Assembly (NCBI GenBank): GCA_037974665.1
Contig: CM075775.1
Coordinates: forward strand, 32,493,732 to 32,557,731
From: Ehretia macrophylla
Taxonomy: Eukaryota > Streptophyta > Magnoliopsida > Boraginales > Ehretiaceae
Length of the DNA stretch: 64,000 nt
Direction of reading: 5' to 3'
Shown: positions 8,451-61,376 of the stretch, in pieces
Numbering within the stretch: the first letter of the stretch is position 1
How the letters are laid out: every line of letters starts with the position of its first letter
Made by a program: the position numbers and the translations under genes
Notes under the pieces: generated by a model
Databases searched by the model: none
Told to the model about the DNA's origin: nothing
What the model saw: the letters and a program-made list of their open reading frames with translations, nothing else

Positions 8451-8644
8451 TACCTATAGGTATAAGTTCTACCTATGAGAGGCTGACCACCAAACCGGAT
8501 TTATAGTAAAATTTTCCTTCGGAGTTAACGTTCTTGAACAATTTCTACAAGAAAAAAACATTTTTATATTCTCCCTAAACATATCCATCTTCTTCATTTG
8601 AAGCAATCCAAGAAAACCAAACCAGACCATAACCTTCTCCATCA

Positions 8645-11600
8645 ATGTCACCACCAATCTATAGCCAAGATGGCATCTATAGATCTCCAAGACCACCCAT
8701 CTCTCTGCCACAAAACCCTAACCTTTCAATGATCTCATTCCTCTTCAGAAACCTTTCCTCCATATCCAAAACCACTGCACTCATTGATGCTGAAACAGGC
8801 CAAGCCTTAACATTTCATGAGCTCAAAAAACAAGTTTCAAACCTCTCTCAAGCCCTCCTGATCAAGCTTAACCTAACCAAGAATGATGTTGTTCTCATTT
8901 TCTCACCAAACTCTATATATTTCCCCATCTCTTTCCTTGCTGTTGTTGCCATTGGTGCCATTGCCACCACTGTTTACCCTCTATACACCATTAATGAGTT
9001 ATCAAACCAGGTCAAAGATTCTAGCCCTAAACTTGTTATCACTGTTAGTGAACTATACCATAAAGTCAAACACTTAAATCTTCCATGTATTTTGCTTGGT
9101 CCTAAAGGTGATCCACATGATCAAAGTACTGTTTCACCCAATTCATCAATTTGGTATTGGCCAGATTTGATGAACTCTTTAAGTAATGTTGAATCAGACT
9201 CGAGATTAGAATGGCCATCAGTGATGGAAAATGATGTTGCAGCACTGTTGTATTCATCTGGCACGACTGGGAAGAGTAAAGGGGTGATTTTAACGCACAG
9301 AAACTTCATTGCCACGGCACTAATGGTGGCTTCAGACCAAGATTTTTATGGTGATCAGAAAAACGTGTTTCTTTGTTTTCTTCCCATGTTTCATATATTT
9401 GGTTTGTCAGTGGTGACTTATGCGCAGCTGCAAAGAGGCAACACAGTGGTGGTGATGACGAAGTTTGAGTTGGATAAAGCTTTGAGTGCTATTCAGAAGT
9501 ATAGAGTGACTCATATGTATGCTGCGCCACCAGTTGTGGTGGCTCTGGTGAAGCAGAAGGAGGTGGTGAAGAAATATGATGTTTCATCATTGAAAGAAAT
9601 AGGATCAGGTGCTGCACCCTTGGGGAAGGATGTAATGGAGGATTGTGCAAAGATTTTTCCAAAAGCTGTGGTTTTTCAGGTGATTAGATATAAAGAGCAT
9701 TTAATATAGTAGATTCTTGATTATTGTTTGATTAGTAGATTCCTATATATGTTTGATGATTGGATTCTCGAAGTCCCGAGTTGAGTATCCTAAATTTGCA
9801 GGTGAGACTAGTGTTGTAACGATTCAGGCTCAATTATTGACATACCAACACATTGAGTCTAATTAATTAACAAAAAATGCTTAAGTTCGTATTAACGATA
9901 ATACTGAGTCCAAATTATTATAAATTGAGCATACATCTCTTACAAACTTGATGAGAGAGACGAGATGTCACACTCGAGCTTACGAGTCATCAATAAGGAT
10001 TTGTATGTTGGCTTCATATTTGAATGTAGACAGAATTTATGAAATTTTGATAACCCAATCTCAGATCACCAAATTTTGAATGCACAAAATAAGAACTTTC
10101 TCCAAATTAATTCCCATGTGATATTTTTCTGAGTTGTAGACATGCAAAGCATGATCTTGTACTAAAGCAATCACTTCATGTCCAAGAGTGTGCGGAATGA
10201 TCATGTATATGATCAGTTATAATCAGAGGTTTGAGCTCAAAGCACAGTTTCCGTCTCCATTGTATAAAAAGAAAAAAAAAATGCAATCACCCTTGAAAGT
10301 AGATTGATCAGGTGAACCAACCACAACCATCCTGAATGGTTTTGTCATTTTAGGAAAGACTAGTATCTACCTCAGATACTGCCTTAAAGATGGTCAATTT
10401 CTATAGTACCTTTGTGAACTTTGCAATGACGAGATGTGTTAAGAATCATGCAGTTTTATTCTAAAATTAGTTGGTGGGGTATGAAGTAGTCCGGGATAAT
10501 GTTTGATTTGGATTTGAAAACTTCTCCTGTTGAATTGCAATGAAAAGTTACGAATTTTGGCAGGGGTATGGAATGACAGAAACATGTGGAATGATTTCAA
10601 TAGAAGATACAAGAAGGGGAAGTCGACATTCAGGTTCAAGTGGGATGCTTGTTCCAGGAGTTGAGTCTCGAATAATAGACATTGCCACAAAGAAACCACT
10701 CCCCCCTTTCCAGAAAGGGGAGATTTTAGTTTGTGGTGCGAATATGATGCAAGGTACAGATAAGTAGTTACATTTCGTCTCACATCGGTTTTATATGAGA
10801 TTTGTGTTCACTTTATAGTGACTTGAGTTCGCTACTACAATCAACATTGGCTTAAGATCCTTGTCAATGTTGTAATCTGAATTCACTTCAGTCTTGCATT
10901 GACAAATTGTATATTGATCAGCTTTGGGATATTAATCCATGTTGGTATCAGCATACTGTAATTAGTGTAATCACTAATTGTTATCTACTGCTGAACTGCA
11001 CTAACTCCAGATTTCATCTTTCAAAACTTTATAGCTGCTCTCAGTGTGTGAAGTATTGAATGCCTAAACTCGAACATAATTCATTTATGGCTCGGTCAAG
11101 CTTTCTTGTCTAGTCATTCTATGATCGGATCTTTGGCCAGTGACATTCCCCTTCCAGGGCTCTCAGAACTTGGGTGTCTGGTTCCGCTACTGCCCAAGAA
11201 TGTGCTGAAGATTGGAGCAATAATAGCTCTAGCAAATGTCATACTGAGACTTTTTACTACATCACACTTTATTATGACTTCAAGAAATGAACTTGATTGA
11301 TTTTAAACTATGATTTAGTTGTTATATTTCTCACTCAAACTTGATTATGCCATGCTGCGAGTGCGATAATGAGTAATATGATGATTATCATTTGCAGGAT
11401 ACTTCAATAATCAAAGAGCCACAGAGCAAACCATGGATAAAGATGGGTGGGTATACACTGGAGATTTAGGCTATTTTGATGAAGAGGGGCAGATATATGT
11501 TGTAGATCGGATAAAAGAACTTATCAAGTGTAAAGGCTTTCAGGTGATTAGATTTATATCATGGGATATTGACACATAAAATTCTTTTCAGCCTTTCCTA

Positions 11601-14849: not shown

Positions 14850-15757
14850 ATGGAATGTACGGACGGACTTTCGAGGGGACGTAATTTCACGCATGAAGAT
14901 GATAAGGCTTTGTGCCGGGCCTATATTGCGATTAGCGAAGATCCTTTGATCGGGATAAACCAAACATCAGGAACAATGTGGAATCGAGTTCTACAAAAAT
15001 ATGAAGAGTTTCACCCTTCCAACAATCCAAGTGAAAAAAGAACAACAAAGAGCCTTAAATCCCGATGGACGCAAATAAATCAAAAATGCACAAAATTTGC
15101 GGAATGTCTTGCTCAAGTCAATATGAGACCAAGGAGCGGAGCAAATGTCATTGATAATGTGAGTTTTTAATACCATATATTGTACTTTTATAGAGTATAT
15201 TGTATTTAATACTTAATAATTTTGTAAATTAAACTTTGAAATTAATTGTTTTGTAGATGGATGACGCTAGACTCTTATACACAGCTATGGGTCATAATTT
15301 CAACTTGGAACACTGTTGGTCCATTTTACAACACGGAAAAAAATGGCGGTCAATAATCGATGTTACGAGTCCAATGATGAATATGAATCCACCCGAGACG
15401 GATTTTTCTGTTGACAATGACGATCCCATGGAGTCAGTGCCAGAAACCCCGAGATCGTCAAGGCCGATTGGAAACAAAAGGGCTAAAAAACAAGCAAAGG
15501 GTAAGGCCATTGGGGAAGATCTTAATAAACCAGCGAAAGACATAGCAAAAACAATTAAACACTACAAAGAGGAATTAGAAACTTCTAACGATTATAAGAT
15601 TATGACGACAAAGACTTCGGCAATCGAAACTCCGGCCAGAAGAGCATGGATGATTGAGGAACAAAATGCAATTATGACAAAAAGGGCATCCCGTTCGATT
15701 AACTTTGATAATGACGTATATCATCCTCATATGACTTCACTTGACGAAGAACAATAG
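14850..15757 (+). CDS. Transposon-borne Myb/SANT-like protein with NAM-associated C-terminus
   Basis: Two exons (14850-15158 and 15257-15757) flank a 98-nt GT-AG intron (gtgagt...tgtag) and encode 269 aa. Residues 11-85 form a trihelix/Myb-SANT-like domain: RNFTHEDDKAL, then GTMWNRVLQKYEEF at 41-54 and SLKSRWTQI at 68-76. Exon 2 starts MDDARLLYTAMG and carries HCWSILQHGKKWR, typical of plant proteins annotated as NAM-associated and often misnamed GST T3-like. Then come a lysine-rich stretch (about 175-190) and a charged C-terminus. In PIF/Harbinger elements such a protein partners the transposase in DNA binding. It lies inside the TIRs at 13450-16252, so it is a transposon gene, not a host regulator. 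The frame is intact, suggesting a fairly young element. Confidence 0.75.
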
Positions 15758-16255
15758 ATGTATTTTTATTATTTATTATAATTTGTGTTTGTAATTCATA
15801 TTTTAATTAGTTAAATATATGTTTTTATTGAATTAGTGTGTACTCGAGTTTTTTTTTTTGAACCTATATTATTGCTTGTTCAAAAAATAAAATTGTATAC
15901 TTTATTTTTAGTTTAGGTAATTTTATTAATTAATTGAATAGAATAAAGAAGAAAAAATAAATATAAACGTAACACACGATAAAAAATTAATTAATGGGTC
16001 AATTTAATTAAGATTTTTTTTACGTATATTTTTTTTTTAATGTTATCAAATTATTATATAAAATTAAAATTAATACGATATAGAGACTCAATTTTATAGA
16101 GACTGTCACTGAATATTATTTTTTATCTTGGTCTCTAAAATAGTTTTTTTGCCTTAATCTCTAAGTGGGTCTCTAAAATACTATTTAGTCTCTATATGGG
16201 TCTCTATAAATAATTTATAAAGACCCATATAGAGACTCCATTGAGAATAGCCTAA

Positions 16256-39290: not shown

Positions 39291-39339
39291 AGGAGGTGTG
39301 AAACAAAGTGGAGAGAGTTGGTTATGTATTCACAAAGAA

Positions 39340-42300
39340 ATGTCACAAGAATCTGAGGAGATAAAGACGATAGAGCAATGGAGATGGTCTGAAATGCAAG
39401 GCCTTGAACTTGTTGTGTCAGCTCACGAGTCATCAGACACCATAGATTTAAGCACACCCTTTAAATCCAACAACAACAACAACAACAGTAGTTATAATAG
39501 CACCCCATCAACTCCTACTATAACTATAACAACCCCCACAACGGCTACAACAACTGCACACACTACACACACTGAGCATACAGAAACAACCCAAGAATTT
39601 GTACAAGAGAGAAGAGAAATGGATGGTTCTGAAGGGAACAACAATCATGGTGGCGGTGGCGATGGAGATGGAGAGAAGAACTCAACAGCCGCTATTGAGT
39701 TCAAGGAGCTCTTCAGATTTGCTGATGGTTTGGACTATGTTTTGATGGGAATTGGCACCGTTGGTGCTTTTGTTCATGGCTGTTCATTGCCTTTGTTCTT
39801 GAGATTCTTTGCTGATCTTGTTAATTCTTTTGGGTCTTATGCTAATGATGTTGATAAGATGACACAAGAAGTTTTGAAGGTAAACACAAATCCATTTAAA
39901 CAAACATATGTATATATATGTGTGTGTGTTGCTGTTTGATGACAACAAGATAATGAAGTGAAGTGATAAGTATTCTTTTCTTGAATGGTTGTTTTTGGTG
40001 CAGTATGCATTTTACTTTCTTGTAGTTGGAGCTGCAATATGGGCATCTTCATGGGCAGGTTAGAAGAAAAAAAAGAGTAGCTTTAATGGTTTTATGTTGA
40101 TTGTGTTAAATAATTTGTTGAAGTTTTTTCTGATTGATAAATGAAGAATCTTGAAATCTGCAGAGATATCATGTTGGATGTGGACTGGAGAGAGGCAAAC
40201 AACAAAGATGAGGATCAAGTACTTAGAGGCTGCTCTGAACCAGGATGTTCAATACTTTGATACCGAGGTTCGAACATCGGATGTAGTTTTTGCCATCAAC
40301 ACTGATGCAGTCATGGTCCAAGACGCGATTAGTGAGAAGGTGAAGAAGAAAGAAAGAGCTCAATTGGGCTCGATTCGTATATTGTAATGAATATGTTTTT
40401 GTGGCGATGGTTTCTAATTGGGCTTTAGTTGTGATTTGAATGCAGTTGGGTAACTTCATACACTATATGGCAACATTTGTTTCTGGATTTGTGGTGGGCT
40501 TTACTGCGGTATGGCAATTAGCCTTGGTCACTCTTGCAGTGGTTCCTCTCATAGCTGTGATTGGAGGCATTCATACCACGACATTAGCGAAGCTCTCGGC
40601 CAAGAGCCAAGAATCTCTTTCGCAAGCTGGAAACATTGTTGAGCAGGTAATAAAGATTGGATTTTTATAGCAATGAAGCTCGTGTTTTTCGTATAAAATT
40701 ACTCTGTTTTGCTGATTCAAGCCAAATTGCAGACAATAGTTCAAATCAGGACAGTATTGGCATATGTGGGCGAGTCGAAAGCTTTACAAGATTACTCTGC
40801 TGCCTTGAAGATTGCCCAGAAGACTGGTTACAAGACTGGATTTTCAAAGGGATTGGGACTTGGATGTACATACTTCACCGTTTTTTGTTGCTATGCTCTT
40901 CTGTTATGGTATGGAGGTTATTTGGTTAGGCACCATTTTACCAATGGAGGACTTGCCATAGCCACTATGTTTGCAGTTATGATAGGTGGACTGTAAGTAC
41001 TCTGTCCATGTAATTTCTCAAATGTAATCTTCATTTCGTGTCCTTTTTCTCGAGATGATTTTCCTTCTTTTGATTTTATAGAGCTCTGGGTCAATCTGCC
41101 CCAAGTATGACTGCATTTGCAAAGGCCAGAGTTGCAGCTGCAAAAGTTTTTCGAATAATTGACCACAAACCAAGTGTTGACAGAAACACTGAATCCGGGT
41201 TGGAATTAGACTCTGTTACAGGACAAGTAGAGCTTAAAAATGTGAATTTTGCCTATCCTTCAAGGCCAGATGTTCAAATACTTAAGAATTTCTCCCTTAC
41301 CGTTCCTGCTGGGAAGACGATAGCCTTGGTTGGAAGCAGTGGTTCTGGAAAAAGCACTGTTGTTTCCCTCATTGAGAGGTTCTATGATCCAACTTCAGGT
41401 AAAAAACTCGTTAAATTTCCAGACATGACTACATTTCATGGTAGGAATTTTTTTTATTAATGTCAGGTAGTTTACGATCCCGAGTCCATGTAGTTCTTGG
41501 ACTGGAAAATCTCTGTTAATAAATGAGTGGCTGTGCAGGACAAGTTGTGCTAGATGGCCATGACATTAAGACATTAAAGCTGAGATGGTTGAGACAGCAA
41601 GTAGGGCTAGTGAGCCAAGAGCCAGCACTGTTTGCCACCACCATCAAAGAGAACATACTTCTCGGCAGGCCTGATGCAAGTCTAGTTGAGGTTGAAGAGG
41701 CTGCTAGAGTTGCTAATGCTCATTCATTCATCATCAAGCTTCCTGATGGTTTTGATACTCAGGTAAGACATGGTAAACCGAATCAAATCAAGCCTTATCC
41801 ATCGAGTCAGAATTTAATTTTCTTATTTCGTGCTTCTCGAAAATAAAAATTGTAAAGAAAAAAATGTGTTGCTTGTGGAAAACAAACACCTATTCTCTCT
41901 CCTACATTCTACTCCAGCATTTAATGCACAAGCTTAATTGTTTATGGTCCCACCAATAACTTATGGAAAGAAGATAGAAACTTAATGTATGCCACTAGTT
42001 GCAGAATGTCAAAAGTTGCTTGACCCTGTAATTTTACGCATAATTATTCCATCTCATCAAGCAATGGCTCTAATTGTTAGTGTATATAGTCCTGCATAAA
42101 TAAATAGGGGTGACTTTAGGCGGGTGACTTTAGGCTGTAGACAAGGTAATAAATACCATTTTGCTTGACGAGGGGTCAGTCCCCTTCGGCCGGATAATAT
42201 ATTGTGGGTTCCACTTGTGTTTCATGGACAGATGGCCGTTTTGCCACAGGGAAGAATTTCCTCTTGGCTAGTTGCTATTCATTATTTACTCCTGTATTGA

Positions 42301-45300
42301 AAATTTGGCTTGCCTTTAGCAGTGGGCACGCTGCATGCAGATTTTTGTTGGATGATTAAGTTTTTGTAGTGTAAATAAGCATTTCGTGCGTATACGATGG
42401 TTTTTTACAAGGAAGTGTGATGCATTTAAGACTGAATGGCTTACTTACTCAGTCAACAAACAGACCTAACATGGTTTGAAAGTCAATGCTGGGGAGGTGT
42501 GTTTGGTCATGCATTTAGAAGTAGGGTAACATGGTTTCAGTCAACAATGCATGTGGGAGAATGCAACGGCTGTTTTTCATTCCTGTAGAAGCAGGAACCT
42601 CTAAGCTTTAGGTGATGGAGTGGGTGTGACTAGGAAACGCACAGTAGCATGCAGGTCATATCAGCGGCTGCTATTTTGAAACTAATGCTCGCGATGTGAA
42701 ATTTTTTGCTTTCCTCCCCGAGGGAGGGTCGGGGAGTGGTTGAGATCTACGGGGCTTACTGTGGATGTAGGAGTATCAGATACGACCGAACCCTACTAAA
42801 ATAGATAATTAATTAAAACAAAATGAAAGAAGACTGTGTAAGCTGGTAAAATTACAAATTTGAGAAATGTGTAGTATATTATTGAAGAAAATTTTGTTTG
42901 ATAAGATTAAGCTCTCATTCTCAACTGGAAAAGCAGATTTGAATTAGGACTTTCCTTCTAAACAGTAACTAAATCGAAGTACACCTTTGATTGCATTAAC
43001 CCTTGAGATTTATAATGGCTAATTTAATGAATAGCACTAAGGAATTTTTTCCTTATGAAATTAATTTCTAAAAAGTAAGGAGAATTGTAAATGAAAAGAA
43101 TTAAATCAGCAGAAAGTGAAACATTGTTTTGGACATGGCAGGTAGGGGAGAGAGGGTTGCAACTCTCGGGTGGACAAAAGCAGAGGATAGCTATTGCAAG
43201 AGCTATGCTAAAGAACCCAGCAATTCTGCTTTTGGATGAGGCAACAAGCGCATTGGATTCTGAATCAGAGAAGCTGGTCCAAGAAGCATTAGATCGATTC
43301 ATGATTGGAAGGACAACTCTTGTTATTGCTCATCGCCTGTCTACCATCAGGAAGGCTGACCTCGTGGCTGTGCTGCAGCAAGGTAGTGTTACGGAGATTG
43401 GAACACATGATGAACTCATGGCAAAAGGAGAAAATGGCGTCTATGCGAAGCTCATCAGAATGCAAGAAGCAGCTCACGAAACAGCTCTTAACAATGCCAG
43501 AAAGAGTAGTGCCAGGTATACTTTCCCATATGTTAACTATAACTGGAATTTCTAGCAAACATAATTTATAACTAAAATTCTCAATTGAGTATGTTAAGGT
43601 ACTTAGTCCTGCATGATTTGGGTATAAGTAGTAAGCTTATAAGTTGTTGATTAATGAGTTTTTTTATTTTACAGGCCCTCTAGCGCAAGGAACTCTGTGA
43701 GCTCACCTATAATTACCCGAAACTCCTCCTACGGTCGATCTCCATACTCACGCCGGCTATCGGACTTCTCTACTTCAGACTTTAGTCTGTCCCTCGATGC
43801 TGCATATCCTAATTATCGGCTTGAAAAACTTGCGTTCAAAGAACAAGCTAGTTCCTTCTGGCGCCTTGCTAAAATGAACTCTCCTGAGTGGAGATATGCT
43901 TTAGTTGGCTCTATAGGCTCAGTTGTTTGTGGCTCGCTTAGTGCATTCTTCGCATATGTCCTGAGTGCTGTTCTCAGTGTCTACTACAATCAAGACCATG
44001 CCTATATGAAGAGAGAAATTGCAAAATATTGCTATCTGTTAATTGGTGTTTCATCAGCTGCACTTATTTTCAATACACTCCAGCACTTCTTCTGGGATAA
44101 GGTGGGAGAGAACTTAACAAAACGAGTGAAAGAGAAAATGCTATCGGCTGTCCTCAAAAACGAAATGGCATGGTTCGATCAAGAAGAGAATGAAAGTTCT
44201 AGAGTTTCAGCAAGACTGGCTCTGGATGCCCAAAATGTTAGGTCAGCCATAGGTGACCGCATTTCAGTGATTATGCAGAACTCAGCTCTTATGCTAGTTG
44301 CCTGCACTGCTGGGTTTGTCTTGCAGTGGCGCCTAGCTCTTGTACTCATTGCGGTTTTCCCTGTTGTTGTTGCAGCAACAGTTTTACAGGTTTGTTTTCC
44401 ACAACTGAATCCATATAACATGCATATCAGGAAGGCAGTGGACAGTGAGGTCACTTTAGGAATGCCTAGGAGCGTTAATATACACTTTCGAGACATTAAA
44501 TTGAAATTTTTTAATAGAAGTCGACCTAAATAAACCTAATTTTTGTTTTTCTTTGGAGTTACCATTAATTGATGCCTGATGAATTTCCGTAATTGACTAT
44601 TTTCATTATACTTTCAACAGAAAATGTTCATGACGGGATTCTCAGGAGACCTAGAAGCTGCACATGCCAAATCCACCCAACTAGCAGGAGAAGCCGTGGC
44701 CAATGTGAGAACTGTTGCTGCCTTCAATTCCGAATCTAAAATTGTCAGCCTTTTCACAACAAATCTCCAAACTCCACTCCGACGTTGCTTCTGGAAAGGA
44801 CAGATTGCTGGAAGTGGTTATGGAATAGCCCAATTTCTGCTTTATGCTTCCTATGCCTTAGGTCTTTGGTATGCCTCTTGGCTCGTCAAGCATGGGATCT
44901 CTGACTTCTCAAAGACTATTCGTGTTTTTATGGTCCTCATGGTTTCAGCGAATGGTGCCGCTGAAACATTGACCTTAGCTCCTGACTTTATTAAGGGTGG
45001 AAGAGCAATGCGGTCAGTGTTTGATCTCCTTGACCGCAAAACTGAAATTGAGCCTGATGATCCAGATTCTACCCCAGTTCCTGAAAGACTTCGCGGTGAA
45101 GTAGAACTCAAGCATGTCGACTTCTCTTACCCATCTCGGCCTGATGTTCCAATTTTCCGTGATCTGTGTTTACGTGCCCGAGCTGGCAAAACTCTAGCTC
45201 TTGTGGGACCTAGTGGTAGTGGTAAGAGCTCAGTCATTGCACTTATACTGCGATATTATGATCCTTCATCAGGTCGCGTTATGATTGACGGAAAAGACAT

Positions 45301-45907
45301 CCGAAAATACAATCTGAAGGCATTGAGACGTCACATTGCAATGGTGCCACAAGAGCCATGCCTCTTTGCTACAACAATATATGAAAATATTGCTTATGGA
45401 CATGAATCGGCAACTGAAGCTGAGATCATTGAAGCAGCAACCTTGGCTAATGCCCACAAATTTGTATCATCGCTGCCTGATGGCTACAAGACATTTGTTG
45501 GAGAGAGAGGAGTTCAGTTATCCGGAGGACAGAAGCAGAGAATAGCCATTGCTCGCGCTTTCTTAAGGAAAGCAGAGCTGATGCTGCTGGATGAAGCCAC
45601 AAGCGCTCTTGATGCTGAGTCAGAAAGGTCTGTACAGGAAGCATTGGAACGCGCTTGTTCAGGAAAGACCACAATTGTGGTTGCACATAGGCTATCTACC
45701 ATCAGGAACGCTCATATCATCGCTGTGATAGATGATGGAAAAGTAGCAGAACAGGGCTCTCACTCTCATCTCTTGAAAAACTACCCCGATGGAATTTACT
45801 CGCGCATGATACAATTGCAAAGATTTACGCACGGACAAGCTGTGACTATGGTATCTGGTTCAAGTTCTTCAGCACGTCACAAGGAAGATCAAGATCAAGG
45901 CCAATGA
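39340..45907 (+). CDS. ABCB1: ABC transporter B family member 1 (P-glycoprotein 1, auxin efflux)
   Basis: Full-size ABCB pump (TMD-NBD-TMD-NBD) of the plasma membrane; orthologs export auxin with the immunophilin TWD1. Ten exons join in frame to 1382 aa: 39340-39879, 40004-40058, 40164-40339, 40446-40646, 40733-40992, 41082-41398, 41539-41762, 43142-43515, 43675-44389 and 44621-45907. NBD1 has Walker [10 protein letters not shown] (495-503), LSGGQ (599-603) and Walker B ILLLDE (about 619-624). NBD2 has GPSGSGKSS (1150-1158), LSGGQ (1254-1258) and [10 protein letters not shown] (1276-1285). The ABCB1-specific linker [20 protein letters not shown] is present. Start [10 protein letters not shown] was chosen because related ABCB1 proteins begin this way; an in-frame ATG at 39298 would add 14 aa. 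The roughly 118 residues before IEFKELF are low-complexity (N-, T- and G-rich), making it about 100 aa longer than the Arabidopsis protein. Intron 7 is longest (1379 bp). Confidence 0.97.
41763..43141 (+). other. Long intron 7 of ABCB1
   Basis: It opens GTAAGA after DTQ and closes GGCAG before [12 protein letters not shown]. No transposon ends or ORF were recognised in its 1379 bp; the other introns are all under 250 bp. Confidence 0.85.
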
Positions 45908-51922: not shown

Positions 51923-52228
51923 TCATTTCGCACTAAACAAAGTAAATCGCAGCACATAGTTGAAGTATGAAAATGTAAGATAGGAAATTTGCTCCCTTAC
52001 TATTATGAACAGCCCACGAAACGATCTTATTCCATTCACACAAGTTGTCGTGGATCCTAGTATTTGCAAGACATCTCTTCCAAATACGTTTAGTGAAACC
52101 ACATCCAAAGATGATGTGGTTTCTAGTTTCCGTCTGCAACGAACAGAACAGGCACATATATAGTTGAATAATCTCTTTGTTTCACCCTTCACTAAAATAT
52201 AACATTTCTGACATTTTGCAAGTTGCAA
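51923..52228 (-). pseudogene. LINE reverse transcriptase C-terminal fragment (zf-RVT)
   Basis: On the - strand, CLFCSLQTETRNHIIFGC followed by FTKRIWKRCLA is the zinc-binding zf-RVT module found downstream of plant LINE reverse transcriptases (C-x2-C ... H ... C, then F..RIW). A frameshift separates it from the preceding piece. The catalytic RT domain is absent. A CACTA-like terminus begins 86 bp beyond its 5' side, which may have cut the LINE. Confidence 0.65.
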
Positions 52229-52313: not shown

Positions 52314-52730
52314 CACTATATGAAAAACTGTTAAAAGCGACGGTCCGTTTTATTTTCGTCGCTAAAAAAACAACGAAAATGAGACGGAACTTTCCATATA
52401 TGAATAGTGACAATTTTGAGACGGTTTTACTAGTTGTTTTCAAATAGTCGCCAACAAAAGACGATTTGAAGACGATTTATCTATGTCGTCTCCAAACCGT
52501 CTCTTAATGGCGACAGTTTTATAAGTAGTTTCCAGATAGTCGTCAACAGAAGATAGTTTGGAGACGATTTATTTATGTCATCTCCAAATCGTCGCCTACC
52601 GTCTCCTAATGGCGACGATTTGGAGACGGTTCTATAAGTTATCTCTAACTAGTCACAAACATGAGACGGTTTGGAGACGACTTATCTATATCGTCTTCAA
52701 ATTGTCTCCTGTTGGCTAAAACATATTATT
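52314..52730 (+). mobile_element. CACTA (En/Spm) left terminus with subterminal repeats
   Basis: It starts CACTATATGAAAAACTG. About 400 bp follow of repeated, alternately oriented motifs built on GAGACGATTT, GGAGACGG and TGGCGACGG, spaced roughly 100 bp. Such arrays are the transposase-binding subterminal repeats of CACTA elements. The matching end is uncertain; see 55921-55982. Confidence 0.7.
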
Positions 52731-55982: not shown

Positions 55983-56404
55983 GGAAAAAAATATAGGTTT
56001 CTATACGCCAAAAAAAAAAAAAAGGAAAAATATACGAGAAAGCTTATGGCAGTTCAGAGAAAAGATAACTTTCATGACCTAATCATACGTATATATACAC
56101 ACAAGCATGGTTTTTAGGATATAGACCCTTGATCTCTAGTATGAATTGGTTGAATGAGAACACACACATAAATTGAGCCTAAACTGTTTTACTTGGTAGA
56201 TAAAACTATCAAATGCTCAAAATAATTGAGAAATAACACAAACGTTACAAATTTTCCATGCAAAAAAAACTTAGGAAATACCACTAAGTTAGCCGAAGAA
56301 TGATCTATGGCGTCAACGAGTCTAACACTTACCAAAAACGAGGAAATCATCGGCCTTGGTACGGAGTTGCATCAGCTGTGGATATAAAGAACTTGAGAAA
56401 GGAT
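55983..56404. other. 3' flank of the MIR530-like locus
   Basis: AT-rich with nothing recognised. It would contain the 3' part of the pri-miRNA on the - strand. Confidence 0.35.
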
Positions 56405-56515
56405 CCCAAGATGCCATTTTGTCTGCACAGGCACCTGCACCTCACTCTCCATATCAGCCATAGAAGGAGGGAGGTGCAGGTGCAAATGCAGAAAAAAATG
56501 AAGACACCTTGACTA
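56405..56515 (-). ncRNA. MIR530: MIR530 microRNA hairpin
   Basis: On the - strand, 56490 down to 56471 reads TGCATTTGCACCTGCACCTC. This is the plant miR530-5p sequence apart from its final base (poplar ends CUU, rice CUA, from memory). The opposite arm (56443-56423) is GAGGTGCAGGTGCCTGTGCAG. It pairs over 21 positions with two mismatches and one G-U. The loop is about 27 nt, and a U-rich/A-rich lower stem extends the fold. This geometry fits plant miRNA precursors. miR530 is known in poplar, rice and other angiosperms; a PLUS3-domain gene is a target in rice. The two ORFs overlapping the hairpin on either strand are not needed to explain it. Confidence 0.85.
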
Positions 56516-56607
56516 CTACTATGCCACATTTCTAAAGTAACACATCAACAAGAGAGATTGTGAATGCCTCTAATTTTATCAAATAGTTTTCGCTCCTTTT
56601 AGGTCTA

Positions 56608-56614
56608 ATTTATA
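56608..56614 (-). promoter_or_regulatory. Candidate TATA box for the MIR530 transcript
   Basis: The - strand reads tataaat about 95 bp before the hairpin and 120 bp before the mature sequence. The motif is common in AT-rich DNA, so support is weak. Confidence 0.3.
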
Positions 56615-56860
56615 CTACCCTGCGACCACGGTTTCATGGAAAAGTATGAAACCTGATTCCCACAGAAAAACCACTAATGTACTCCCGATATTTATACTCA
56701 ACCAAACATGCTCGCACTATGATAATGATAATGTATAATTTGACAATTATATGAATAAATTTTTTTTTAGTGGAAGTTATGACACACACTTTGAATTAGA
56801 AGTACATAAAAGTTTTAGATATTTTAATAAAAATAGTAGAGATTGTAAAAATTTTTGGAG

Positions 56861-56950: not shown

Positions 56951-57039
56951 TAGAGAATGCAAGGGTGGAGTGGGTTTGGATCCTTTCCTTACTTTTTTTT
57001 GTTATCTACTAGATGAGGTATATAATAGGGCATGAGATT

Positions 57040-58205
57040 TAATTTTTCTAAATCTCAACTATCCATTTTTAATTTTAATTGTGAAAAAGGTAGTTAAAAT
57101 AAATTTGAATGAATGGTTGAATTTTTAAAAAGTCAAATCAATGGCCTATAATATACCTCATCGATCTAGTAGATAAGAAAAAAAGTAAATGAGAGAATCG
57201 AAATCCGGAGTGGAGCTACTTCAGTGCGGCCCTGCTAGGCCAAAAAAATTAAAAATCTACATTTTTTTGGGAAGAAAATTTCAAAAAAACTACGTATTTT
57301 TAGTTAAAAAGTTAGTTAATCTCCACCGAAAAAAATAAATAAATTCACAATTAAAAATTATATATTAAAGCTTTTACTAAAAAAAAATTTCTTTACGTAC
57401 ATGAGAAATTGTAACCTCCACTAACATCAAAGTGCATCTGACCCTAGGTCTAACTTCAAATTAAATAGTTTTTTTTTTTTCTATTTAGGAAAAATTAAAA
57501 ATCGTACAACATAATTAAAAAAACTCAAACTCACAACTTTTTATACATAACGAGTAACCTCATTATTGGACCAAAACCCTAGTGGCAAATTAAATGGCTG
57601 TTTGTAGGGTTGGAATGGACAGTACAAGACACACTGAGTAGCCACGTGATGAAAGCATTGGGATCACGTGGGCGTTGATGTCCTTTGCCAATTAGAATGC
57701 AGCAAACAAAGGTCCTACATTAACAGCCCCACCTGAACAGCCATGGGGATGGAGAGAGTAGTCATCAAACTTTTTCCAAATTGCTTGTCTGAAATTAGTG
57801 GTAGGCCTTATTTTAGAGTCGACGTGGGTAAACCTGTGACCAAACACCCGACACTTTCACCAATATCTAGCGATCCCTGGTTAGTCAACATCTAAAGTCT
57901 CAAGAGAATGTTGTTGTTGATATTTCTGCTTTTGGTGAAGATTTTGATATGATTCTCAATTGGTGGATTGCAGTCACGAATATGATTTAGATTTAAGCAT
58001 GGATTTAGTATTTTTGTTTAATAAAAATTAAAAATATAAAATTTAATACACCAAATTCTTTCACAAAAAATTAGGTTAAGTGGAAATTGCCACCCGCACT
58101 CAATTACTTATACATTTACCTTGTCTAAATTCCAATATTTGGTTTTACTTAAGCCGAAATTGCAAGTTGCTACATAGTGTGACAACTATTTTTTGGAAAA
58201 TCCAG
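57040..58205. other. Intergenic spacer, upstream side of MIR530
   Basis: No gene. A GGCG-family repeat fragment is at about 57215-57440. A less AT-rich segment at 57600-57830 holds two ACGTG motifs (gccacgtgatg and atcacgtgggc), which could be regulatory for MIR530 or another gene. This is speculative. Confidence 0.35.
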
Positions 58206-60275: not shown

Positions 60276-61376
60276 TAGAGGTGGCATTTGGGTTGGCCGA
60301 CACAGGTCCAATTCAGCCCAGCACACGAAAATTCGGGCCCAACCCAGCTTGAATAAAACTGGGTTTGACTCGGCTCAACCCACACATATAAGTGGGCCGA
60401 GCTGGGTCATATATTTTTGAACCCAGCCCATTTGTGCCCAAGCCCATTTATGCCCAAGCTTATCCCAGCCCAGCTCGAGCCCAACTCAGGCCCAGCTCGA
60501 GCCTAGCTTAGGCCCAATTCGAGTCCAGATAAAGCCCATCTTGAAATTATAATTTGTACATGTAATTTTTGTTATAAATAGTTAGTGTATTCAACTTCAT
60601 TTTACTACAAAACTATATATTTATTTTACTACCTATTGTCTCTTTATTTTACTATAAGAGAATACACAATATCTATTGCTATGGGAGAAGAAAATCTTTT
60701 ACAACGATTACGTTTAAATGTTTGGAATCATTTTGCCTACTTTGAAGAACATGAATATGTAATTTATAACTATTGTGAACGTAAATATATATTTCGTCGT
60801 CAATTTGGAACTAAAACGCTAGTAAAACATCTTGTATCCCAACACTCAAATGTTCCAAACTATTTTAATCATCAACCGCGGCCACCACCGCCACCAACAT
60901 GCTCAACACCCGCACAAAGAGCATAATAAAATAGAGAACTTCTCCACCAACTTTATTCAAGAATTTATGTAATGTTCTTTTTTTATATATATTTATTAGT
61001 AACGTATCTGTGTCTCGTGAACTTGTGGTTTGTTAAATAATATTTTATCATTTATGTTAATATTATCAATCACCTTATGTCTGGTTAATTGTTAAATTAA
61101 TTTTTACGTAAAAAAGGTTAAACTTAAGCTTTTTCGTTATTAATCCAACTATAAAAATTCAAAACATACTAATAAATAAATAAATGGGCTGGTCCAGTTC
61201 AGCTCAGCCCAGCTCGCTACTCGTTGTAGTAGGCTCGTGGGCCGAACTGGATCCTATATTTTAAGAAGTTAGCCCAGCCCAACTCAGCTTACTAAACATA
61301 TATACCGAGCCTAACTCATTTTTCTTAACCTACGATTCAAGCGGACCGTGTCGCACTGACCCATTTGCCAGCTCTA
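60276..61376. mobile_element. Non-autonomous hAT element with 8-bp target duplication
   Basis: Perfect cctgtatg flanks at 60268-60275 and 61377-61384. TIRs are TAGAGGTGGCATTTGGG and, inverted, TAGAGCTGGCAAATGGG. Subterminal 'cagcccagct' and 'gcccaactca' motifs repeat at both ends, as in other plant hAT elements. It carries a short BED-finger-like ORF (60681-60926) but no transposase. 1101 bp. Confidence 0.88.
60681..60926 (+). pseudogene. hAT transposase N-terminal BED zinc-finger remnant
   Basis: The 81-aa ORF starts MGEENLLQRLRLNVWNHF. It has VWNHFAYFEE, then YNYCERKYIFRR, FGTKTLVKHL and VSQH: the order of a BED finger (family: VWNHF, C-x2-C, GT..L..HL...H). The first zinc cysteine is tyrosine (YNYC instead of CxYC), so the finger should not fold normally. 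A proline-rich tail ends at a stop; the rest of the transposase is deleted. Confidence 0.65.

Follow-up and report, generated by a model that had tools for sequence, protein, structure and literature searches.

The window analysed here, a stretch of 64,000 nucleotides from Ehretia macrophylla (C12:32493732-32557731), carries on its minus strand what is very probably the plant's MIR530 gene, and the microRNA of its 5' arm would cleave the mRNA of TZP, lowering TZP output. What is observed is the mature sequence, the fold around it, a match to the MIR530 family, the occurrence of the exact 19-mer at a single place in the genome, and a target site in TZP. By those sequence criteria that can be tested, bar the Rfam cut-off, the locus is a genuine MIR530 gene; very likely, it adds one more ordinary member to a family already known.

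The hairpin and its family

Positions 56512-56406 of the minus strand form a single long stem, the outermost pair being 56512-56406, and a fold of 56380-56540, the check proposed by the first-pass annotation, places the mature sequence TGCATTTGCACCTGCACCTC within it. This 161-nt segment (56540-56380) folds at -61.8 kcal/mol, compared to -40.1 +/- 3.6 kcal/mol in 200 dinucleotide shuffles (z -6.07; 0/200 as low), and among 6390 segments of 110 nt taken from both strands of the window in steps of 20 the hairpin segment has the lowest folding energy. Other segments of very low energy (-43 to -50 kcal/mol) start at 60400-60540 on the minus strand and at 52521-52601 and 16161-16181 on the plus strand. 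The MFEI for 56405-56515 is 1.08, which exceeds the 0.59-0.66 given for tRNA, rRNA and mRNA in the excerpted text of PMC5258749 and lies inside the range of plant precursor means given there (0.90-1.38).

The 20-nt form of mature miR530-5p occupies 56490-56471 on the 5' arm, and an alternative 21-nt form would extend to 56470. At its 18 paired positions the base-pair probabilities are 0.96-1.00; a symmetric 2-nt internal loop leaves mature positions 6 and 7 without partners, and a G:U pair at position 5 is the sole wobble of the duplex, so that the earlier description of a near-perfect hairpin with two mismatches and one wobble holds. The predicted star, miR530-3p, is the 21-nt AGGTGCAGGTGCCTGTGCAGA at 56442-56422; opposite the 21-nt mature form (56490-56470) it leaves 2-nt 3' overhangs. 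Between the two lie 27 nt (56469-56443), the length that had been given for the loop, although most of this terminal part is a short stem capped by a 5-nt terminal loop. Beneath the duplex the stem extends further, by 22 nt in its 5' strand and 16 nt in its 3' strand. Allowing up to 3 mismatches, the window would by chance contain the 19-mer of the mature sequence 0.02 times; it contains it twice, the second place being the hairpin's own opposite arm.

The only open reading frames of at least 60 codons (stop to stop) across the hairpin are of 74 codons on the plus strand and 65 on the minus strand, and the latter has no Pfam match. An annotation based on reading frames would miss the locus, as had been said at first pass, and the locus also escapes Rfam when the curated cut-off is applied: nowhere in the window does any RNA family reach its own curated value. 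In a permissive scan of 4227 families against 56300-56620, the best match is RF01005 (MIR530) at 56513-56405 on the minus strand, with 46.7 bits and an E-value of 5.7e-8, in agreement with the family and strand first assigned; the best E-value of any other family in that scan is 0.00077. The curated gathering score of RF01005 is 85 bits, which the hairpin does not reach. The alignment nevertheless spans model positions 1-172 with 109 bases, and both the arms and the basal stem align; in its undisplayed middle, 75 model positions correspond to 11 bases here, so the loop lacks about 64 positions of the consensus. The low score is probably due to this short loop. The extended lower stem is similar to that of the Rfam consensus, whereas the loop part is much shorter here. 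As the identity of the family resides in the arms together with the mature strand, the 85-bit value, a database cut-off and no biological criterion, is not treated as defining.

The poplar sequence ptr-miR7018 is taken here to be poplar miR530. In the sections of the sources that give sequences, all 20 letters of TGCATTTGCACCTGCACCTC are shared with persimmon dka-miR530a (PMC4308916), for which low counts are recorded (1.149 and 0.010 TPM in two libraries), and 19 of 20 are shared with cassava mes-miR530a (PMC9963618), where base 20 is U compared to C here. The same U for C at base 20 separates it from ptr-miR7018 (PMC2270843; 19 letters shared), so that the claim of a difference only at the last base is true of the first 20 bases of the poplar sequence, and pepper can-miR530 (PMC3667847; 19 letters shared) has G at this position. 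The rose miR530a (PMC3527192) and dried-nut miR530 (PMC6704100) listed in the excerpts are 21-mers that start with the same 20 letters; base 21 is U in both, compared to the C predicted here. The okra precursor was left out of the comparison; in the table seen from its source (PMC5831935) its 3' half is the same as that of other precursors. MiR530 is termed conserved across monocots and dicots in the extract of PMC8435866.

The plus strand of the hairpin folds as well (-53.2 kcal/mol), which is counted against the MIR530 assignment and would accommodate a functional plus-strand precursor yielding a different small RNA. This is extremely improbable, as RF01005 scores 29.3 bits there compared to 46.7 bits on the minus strand, and the known mature sequence reads on the minus strand, on the 5' arm, which is also the arm of the 19-letter match in the poplar table (PMC2270843, as excerpted).

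Copies elsewhere in the genome

In the 1.58-Gb genome (20 contigs), the exact 19-mer has one copy, that of the window hairpin. At an E-value of 1e-3 the hairpin has no genome match beyond itself and its own opposite arm, and does not have the many copies that a MITE- or transposon-derived hairpin would. No repeat was found over it, either with the hairpin as query (one candidate, which was scored) or with a 2.1-kb query (40 of 1377 candidates scored); the other matches among those 40 all fall on a neighbouring miniature element (MITE).

With up to 3 mismatches the 19-mer pattern occurs at 272 places (127 + 145) and the reversed pattern at 207 (86 + 121), which indicates that many or most of the 272 are chance matches. 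Loci were retrieved for 30 of them, namely 7 rows with 3 mismatches and every one of the 23 rows with up to 2, several of which overlap in tandem tracts of TGCACC; a more diverged paralogue may exist among the remaining places. For each of the 30 loci the best-matching place was folded in two 300-nt settings; in overlapping tracts this was sometimes the place of a neighbour, as for L022, for which the L004 place was used. Except at the window, these folds gave no microRNA-like hairpin in any of the 23 rows with up to 2 mismatches. The two places with one mismatch are L004, in a TGCACC tandem tract, and L005 (C14:47803924).

Several other loci pair extensively. L029 (3 mismatches; 20 bases paired to one arm) and L005 (17 bases paired) initially resembled hairpins, but when refolded alone they do not surpass their shuffles (z -0.07 and +1.18, respectively) and were rejected as copies. 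L023 pairs 16 bases to one arm and adjoins a reading frame that by eye is retrotransposon-like, and the pairing of L006 (17 bases) and L030/L031 (16) is spread over more than one side in one or both settings.

Loci of prokaryotes or viruses in which the exact 19-mer occurs, 18 in number, were folded as a control from outside the genome. None has a complementary 12-mer within 300 nt, of which the window has one, and in the best of them 15 of the 20 bases pair with a single arm (0/18 reach 16), compared to 18 in the window. These loci, together with the shuffling z of the fold, argue against a chance inverted repeat that happens to contain the miR530 letters. A repeat derived from a transposon might be suspected from the high-copy MITE nearby, since MITEs form hairpins, but the search at 1e-3 found no match for the hairpin beyond its own other arm; taken together, a chance or transposon-derived origin is highly improbable.

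TZP and its miR530 site

At C14:47803924-47803943, the L005 match is antisense to an exon of a TZP-like gene; the opposite strand has an open frame of 185 codons, whose sequence at the site is KGAGVNAGSRVDMTF. The gene itself (L033, C14:47796200-47805900, minus strand) has the miR530 site in a 5' exon and further exons on the same strand, including one of 359 residues in which two CCHC knuckles, CLFCGRPGHDLRYC and CLICFQLDHWASTC, are recognized by eye; the Pfam zinc knuckle model gives this exon an E-value of 0.016, which is below its cut-off. Across several exon pieces joined by eye, a Plus-3 domain is found with an E-value of 7.1e-12 and 46.3 bits compared to a cut-off of 27. Two tandem zinc knuckles followed by Plus-3 identify the gene as TZP, and the N-terminal part of its product presumably resembles that of TZP proteins. 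Across the genome the knuckle exon is matched in full once. At C16:22539505-22539615 (L036) lies a 37-residue piece, interrupted by two stops and 76% identical to the start of this exon, which is perhaps a decayed TZP duplicate.

In the pairing of miR530 with the TZP site, the departures from a perfect match are a G:U at miRNA position 8 and a mismatch at the 3'-terminal base, position 20. Under a scoring scheme devised for this analysis (mismatch 1, G:U 0.5, doubled at positions 2-13), the site scores 2.0; among 1000 letter-shuffled miRNAs the lowest score is 4.5, so that 0/1000 do as well. The genome holds 7 further Plus-3 matches above the cut-off, among which the intron-split one of TZP is not found, and in 3.2-3.3 kb around each, on both strands, the best miR530 site scores 8.0. 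Among the 30 loci, the only other score as low as 2.0 comes from the TGCACC tract L004/L022, equal to TZP. The longest reading frame there (387 codons) lies on the strand of the match, so a miR530 site would be antisense to it, although the opposite strand is itself open for 258 codons.

No trace is left of a descent of the hairpin from an inverted copy of TZP: the only notable similarity between them is the 20-nt site itself (E 2.9e-4), and beyond it all matches of the hairpin to the TZP region are of at most 15 nt, with E-values of 0.28 or worse.

As far as the accessible parts of the sources extend, TZP is reported as a miR530 target by dual-luciferase assay in Kalanchoe (PMC8233840) and Ammopiptanthus (PMC10095008), it was predicted with a score of 1 in pepper (PMC3667847), and a rice miR530-TZP module is given by citation in PMC8233840. 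The reported target has a miR530 site, by sequence, in this genome also. Two TZP targets are described in the Kalanchoe text as excerpted (PMC8233840), compared to the one full knuckle-exon match here. Other published targets include bZIP transcription factors, predicted for miR530a in a rose table (PMC3527192), and HSP70, named for Populus qiongdaoensis (PMC7444055), again as these sources appear in extract. Such targets are counted against the MIR530-TZP explanation, as are the 46.7 of 85 bits, the imperfect target site and the equal score of L004/L022.

Upstream region and proposed function

A possible TATA box, TATAAATA, is located at 56689-56696 on the minus strand, 177 nt before the stem base. 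The motif has 7 copies on the minus strand of the window; in the 2.5 kb searched 1 was seen with 0.27 expected. Further up, an evening-element-like motif, AAATATCT (56817-56824, minus), has 5 copies on that strand of the window, 1 seen in the 2.5 kb with 0.2 expected, and two CACGTG G-boxes (57648-57643 and 57670-57665, minus; 2 seen, 0.55 expected) are possible PIF-type sites; both of these may be chance matches. AATAAA was seen 0 times in the 2.5 kb, compared to 4.4 expected. As nine motif classes were tried and the counts are small, these motifs serve as leads only. PIL15 and WRKY36 are activators of the rice miR530 promoter, acting through a G-box and a W-box, according to the extract of PMC11858971, and Kalanchoe miR530 follows a diurnal rhythm in that of PMC8233840; G-box and evening-element-like sites would fit with both.

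The MITE lies outside the microRNA hairpin, at 56972-57206 on the minus strand, with approximately 275 bp between it and the TATA-like box downstream. It is 235 bp long with inverted terminal repeats, and at least 39 other genome places carry it with 75-82% identity (40 of 1377 candidates scored, the window included). Flanks were read by eye in three copies: L040 has a perfect 10-bp direct repeat, and the flanking 10-mers are alike at 8/10 in L038 and 7/10 in the window copy. The length of this repeat suggests a Mutator-like element.

An insertion this close to the TATA-like box is what would favor a silent or decaying MIR530 copy, in which the hairpin is intact and transcription has been lost, for example through the upstream MITE. 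This is very unlikely: the mature strand is intact, with the letters reported for dka-miR530a, the stem is nearly perfect, and the TZP target site has been kept. The folds made of the places with up to 2 mismatches gave no other microRNA-like hairpin, and in a decaying sole copy loss of arm pairing would be expected. It is unlikely that the module has been reduced to one MIR530 and one intact TZP and that the MITE, lying between the G-boxes and the TATA-like box, has altered the light or clock response of MIR530 and hence of TZP.

Elsewhere in the window, ABC transporter exons occupy 43658-45907 on the plus strand (Pfam ABC_membrane and ABC_tran; B type by eye), with further exons by eye from approximately 39.3 kb, where the reading frame 39298-39939 has no Pfam match. 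An exon of an AMP-binding enzyme, 4-coumarate-CoA-ligase-like by eye, is found at 8633-9709 (plus). Three features are possibly transposon-derived: a protein with a NAM-associated domain (15257-15757, plus), a zf-RVT fragment just below the Pfam cut-off (51933-52181, minus) and a BED zinc finger (60582-60926, plus).

Under the favored explanation, that of an active MIR530 gene, Pol II would transcribe the precursor, as the family and general knowledge of plant microRNAs suggest, from a start near the TATA-like box at approximately 56690 on the minus strand, and the transcript would form the stem of 56512-56406. From this a 20-21-nt duplex would be excised by a Dicer-like enzyme, starting from the stem base, and the 5'-U strand of the 5' arm (56490-56471/56470) would be loaded into Argonaute. 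Loaded miR530 would cleave the TZP mRNA near the start of its coding part, resulting in less TZP. TZP is a light and clock signalling factor, and each step in this plant, from transcription through processing, loading and cleavage to a light and clock role, is proposed by analogy.

Knowledge of plant microRNAs is left unchanged, but one more plant genome now has a MIR530 locus and a target site assigned to it. The locus illustrates that a short-looped precursor may drop below a curated Rfam cut-off despite a clear family and target, and it supplies precise coordinates at which to study the miR530-TZP module of this plant, in which miR530 would act to lower TZP.
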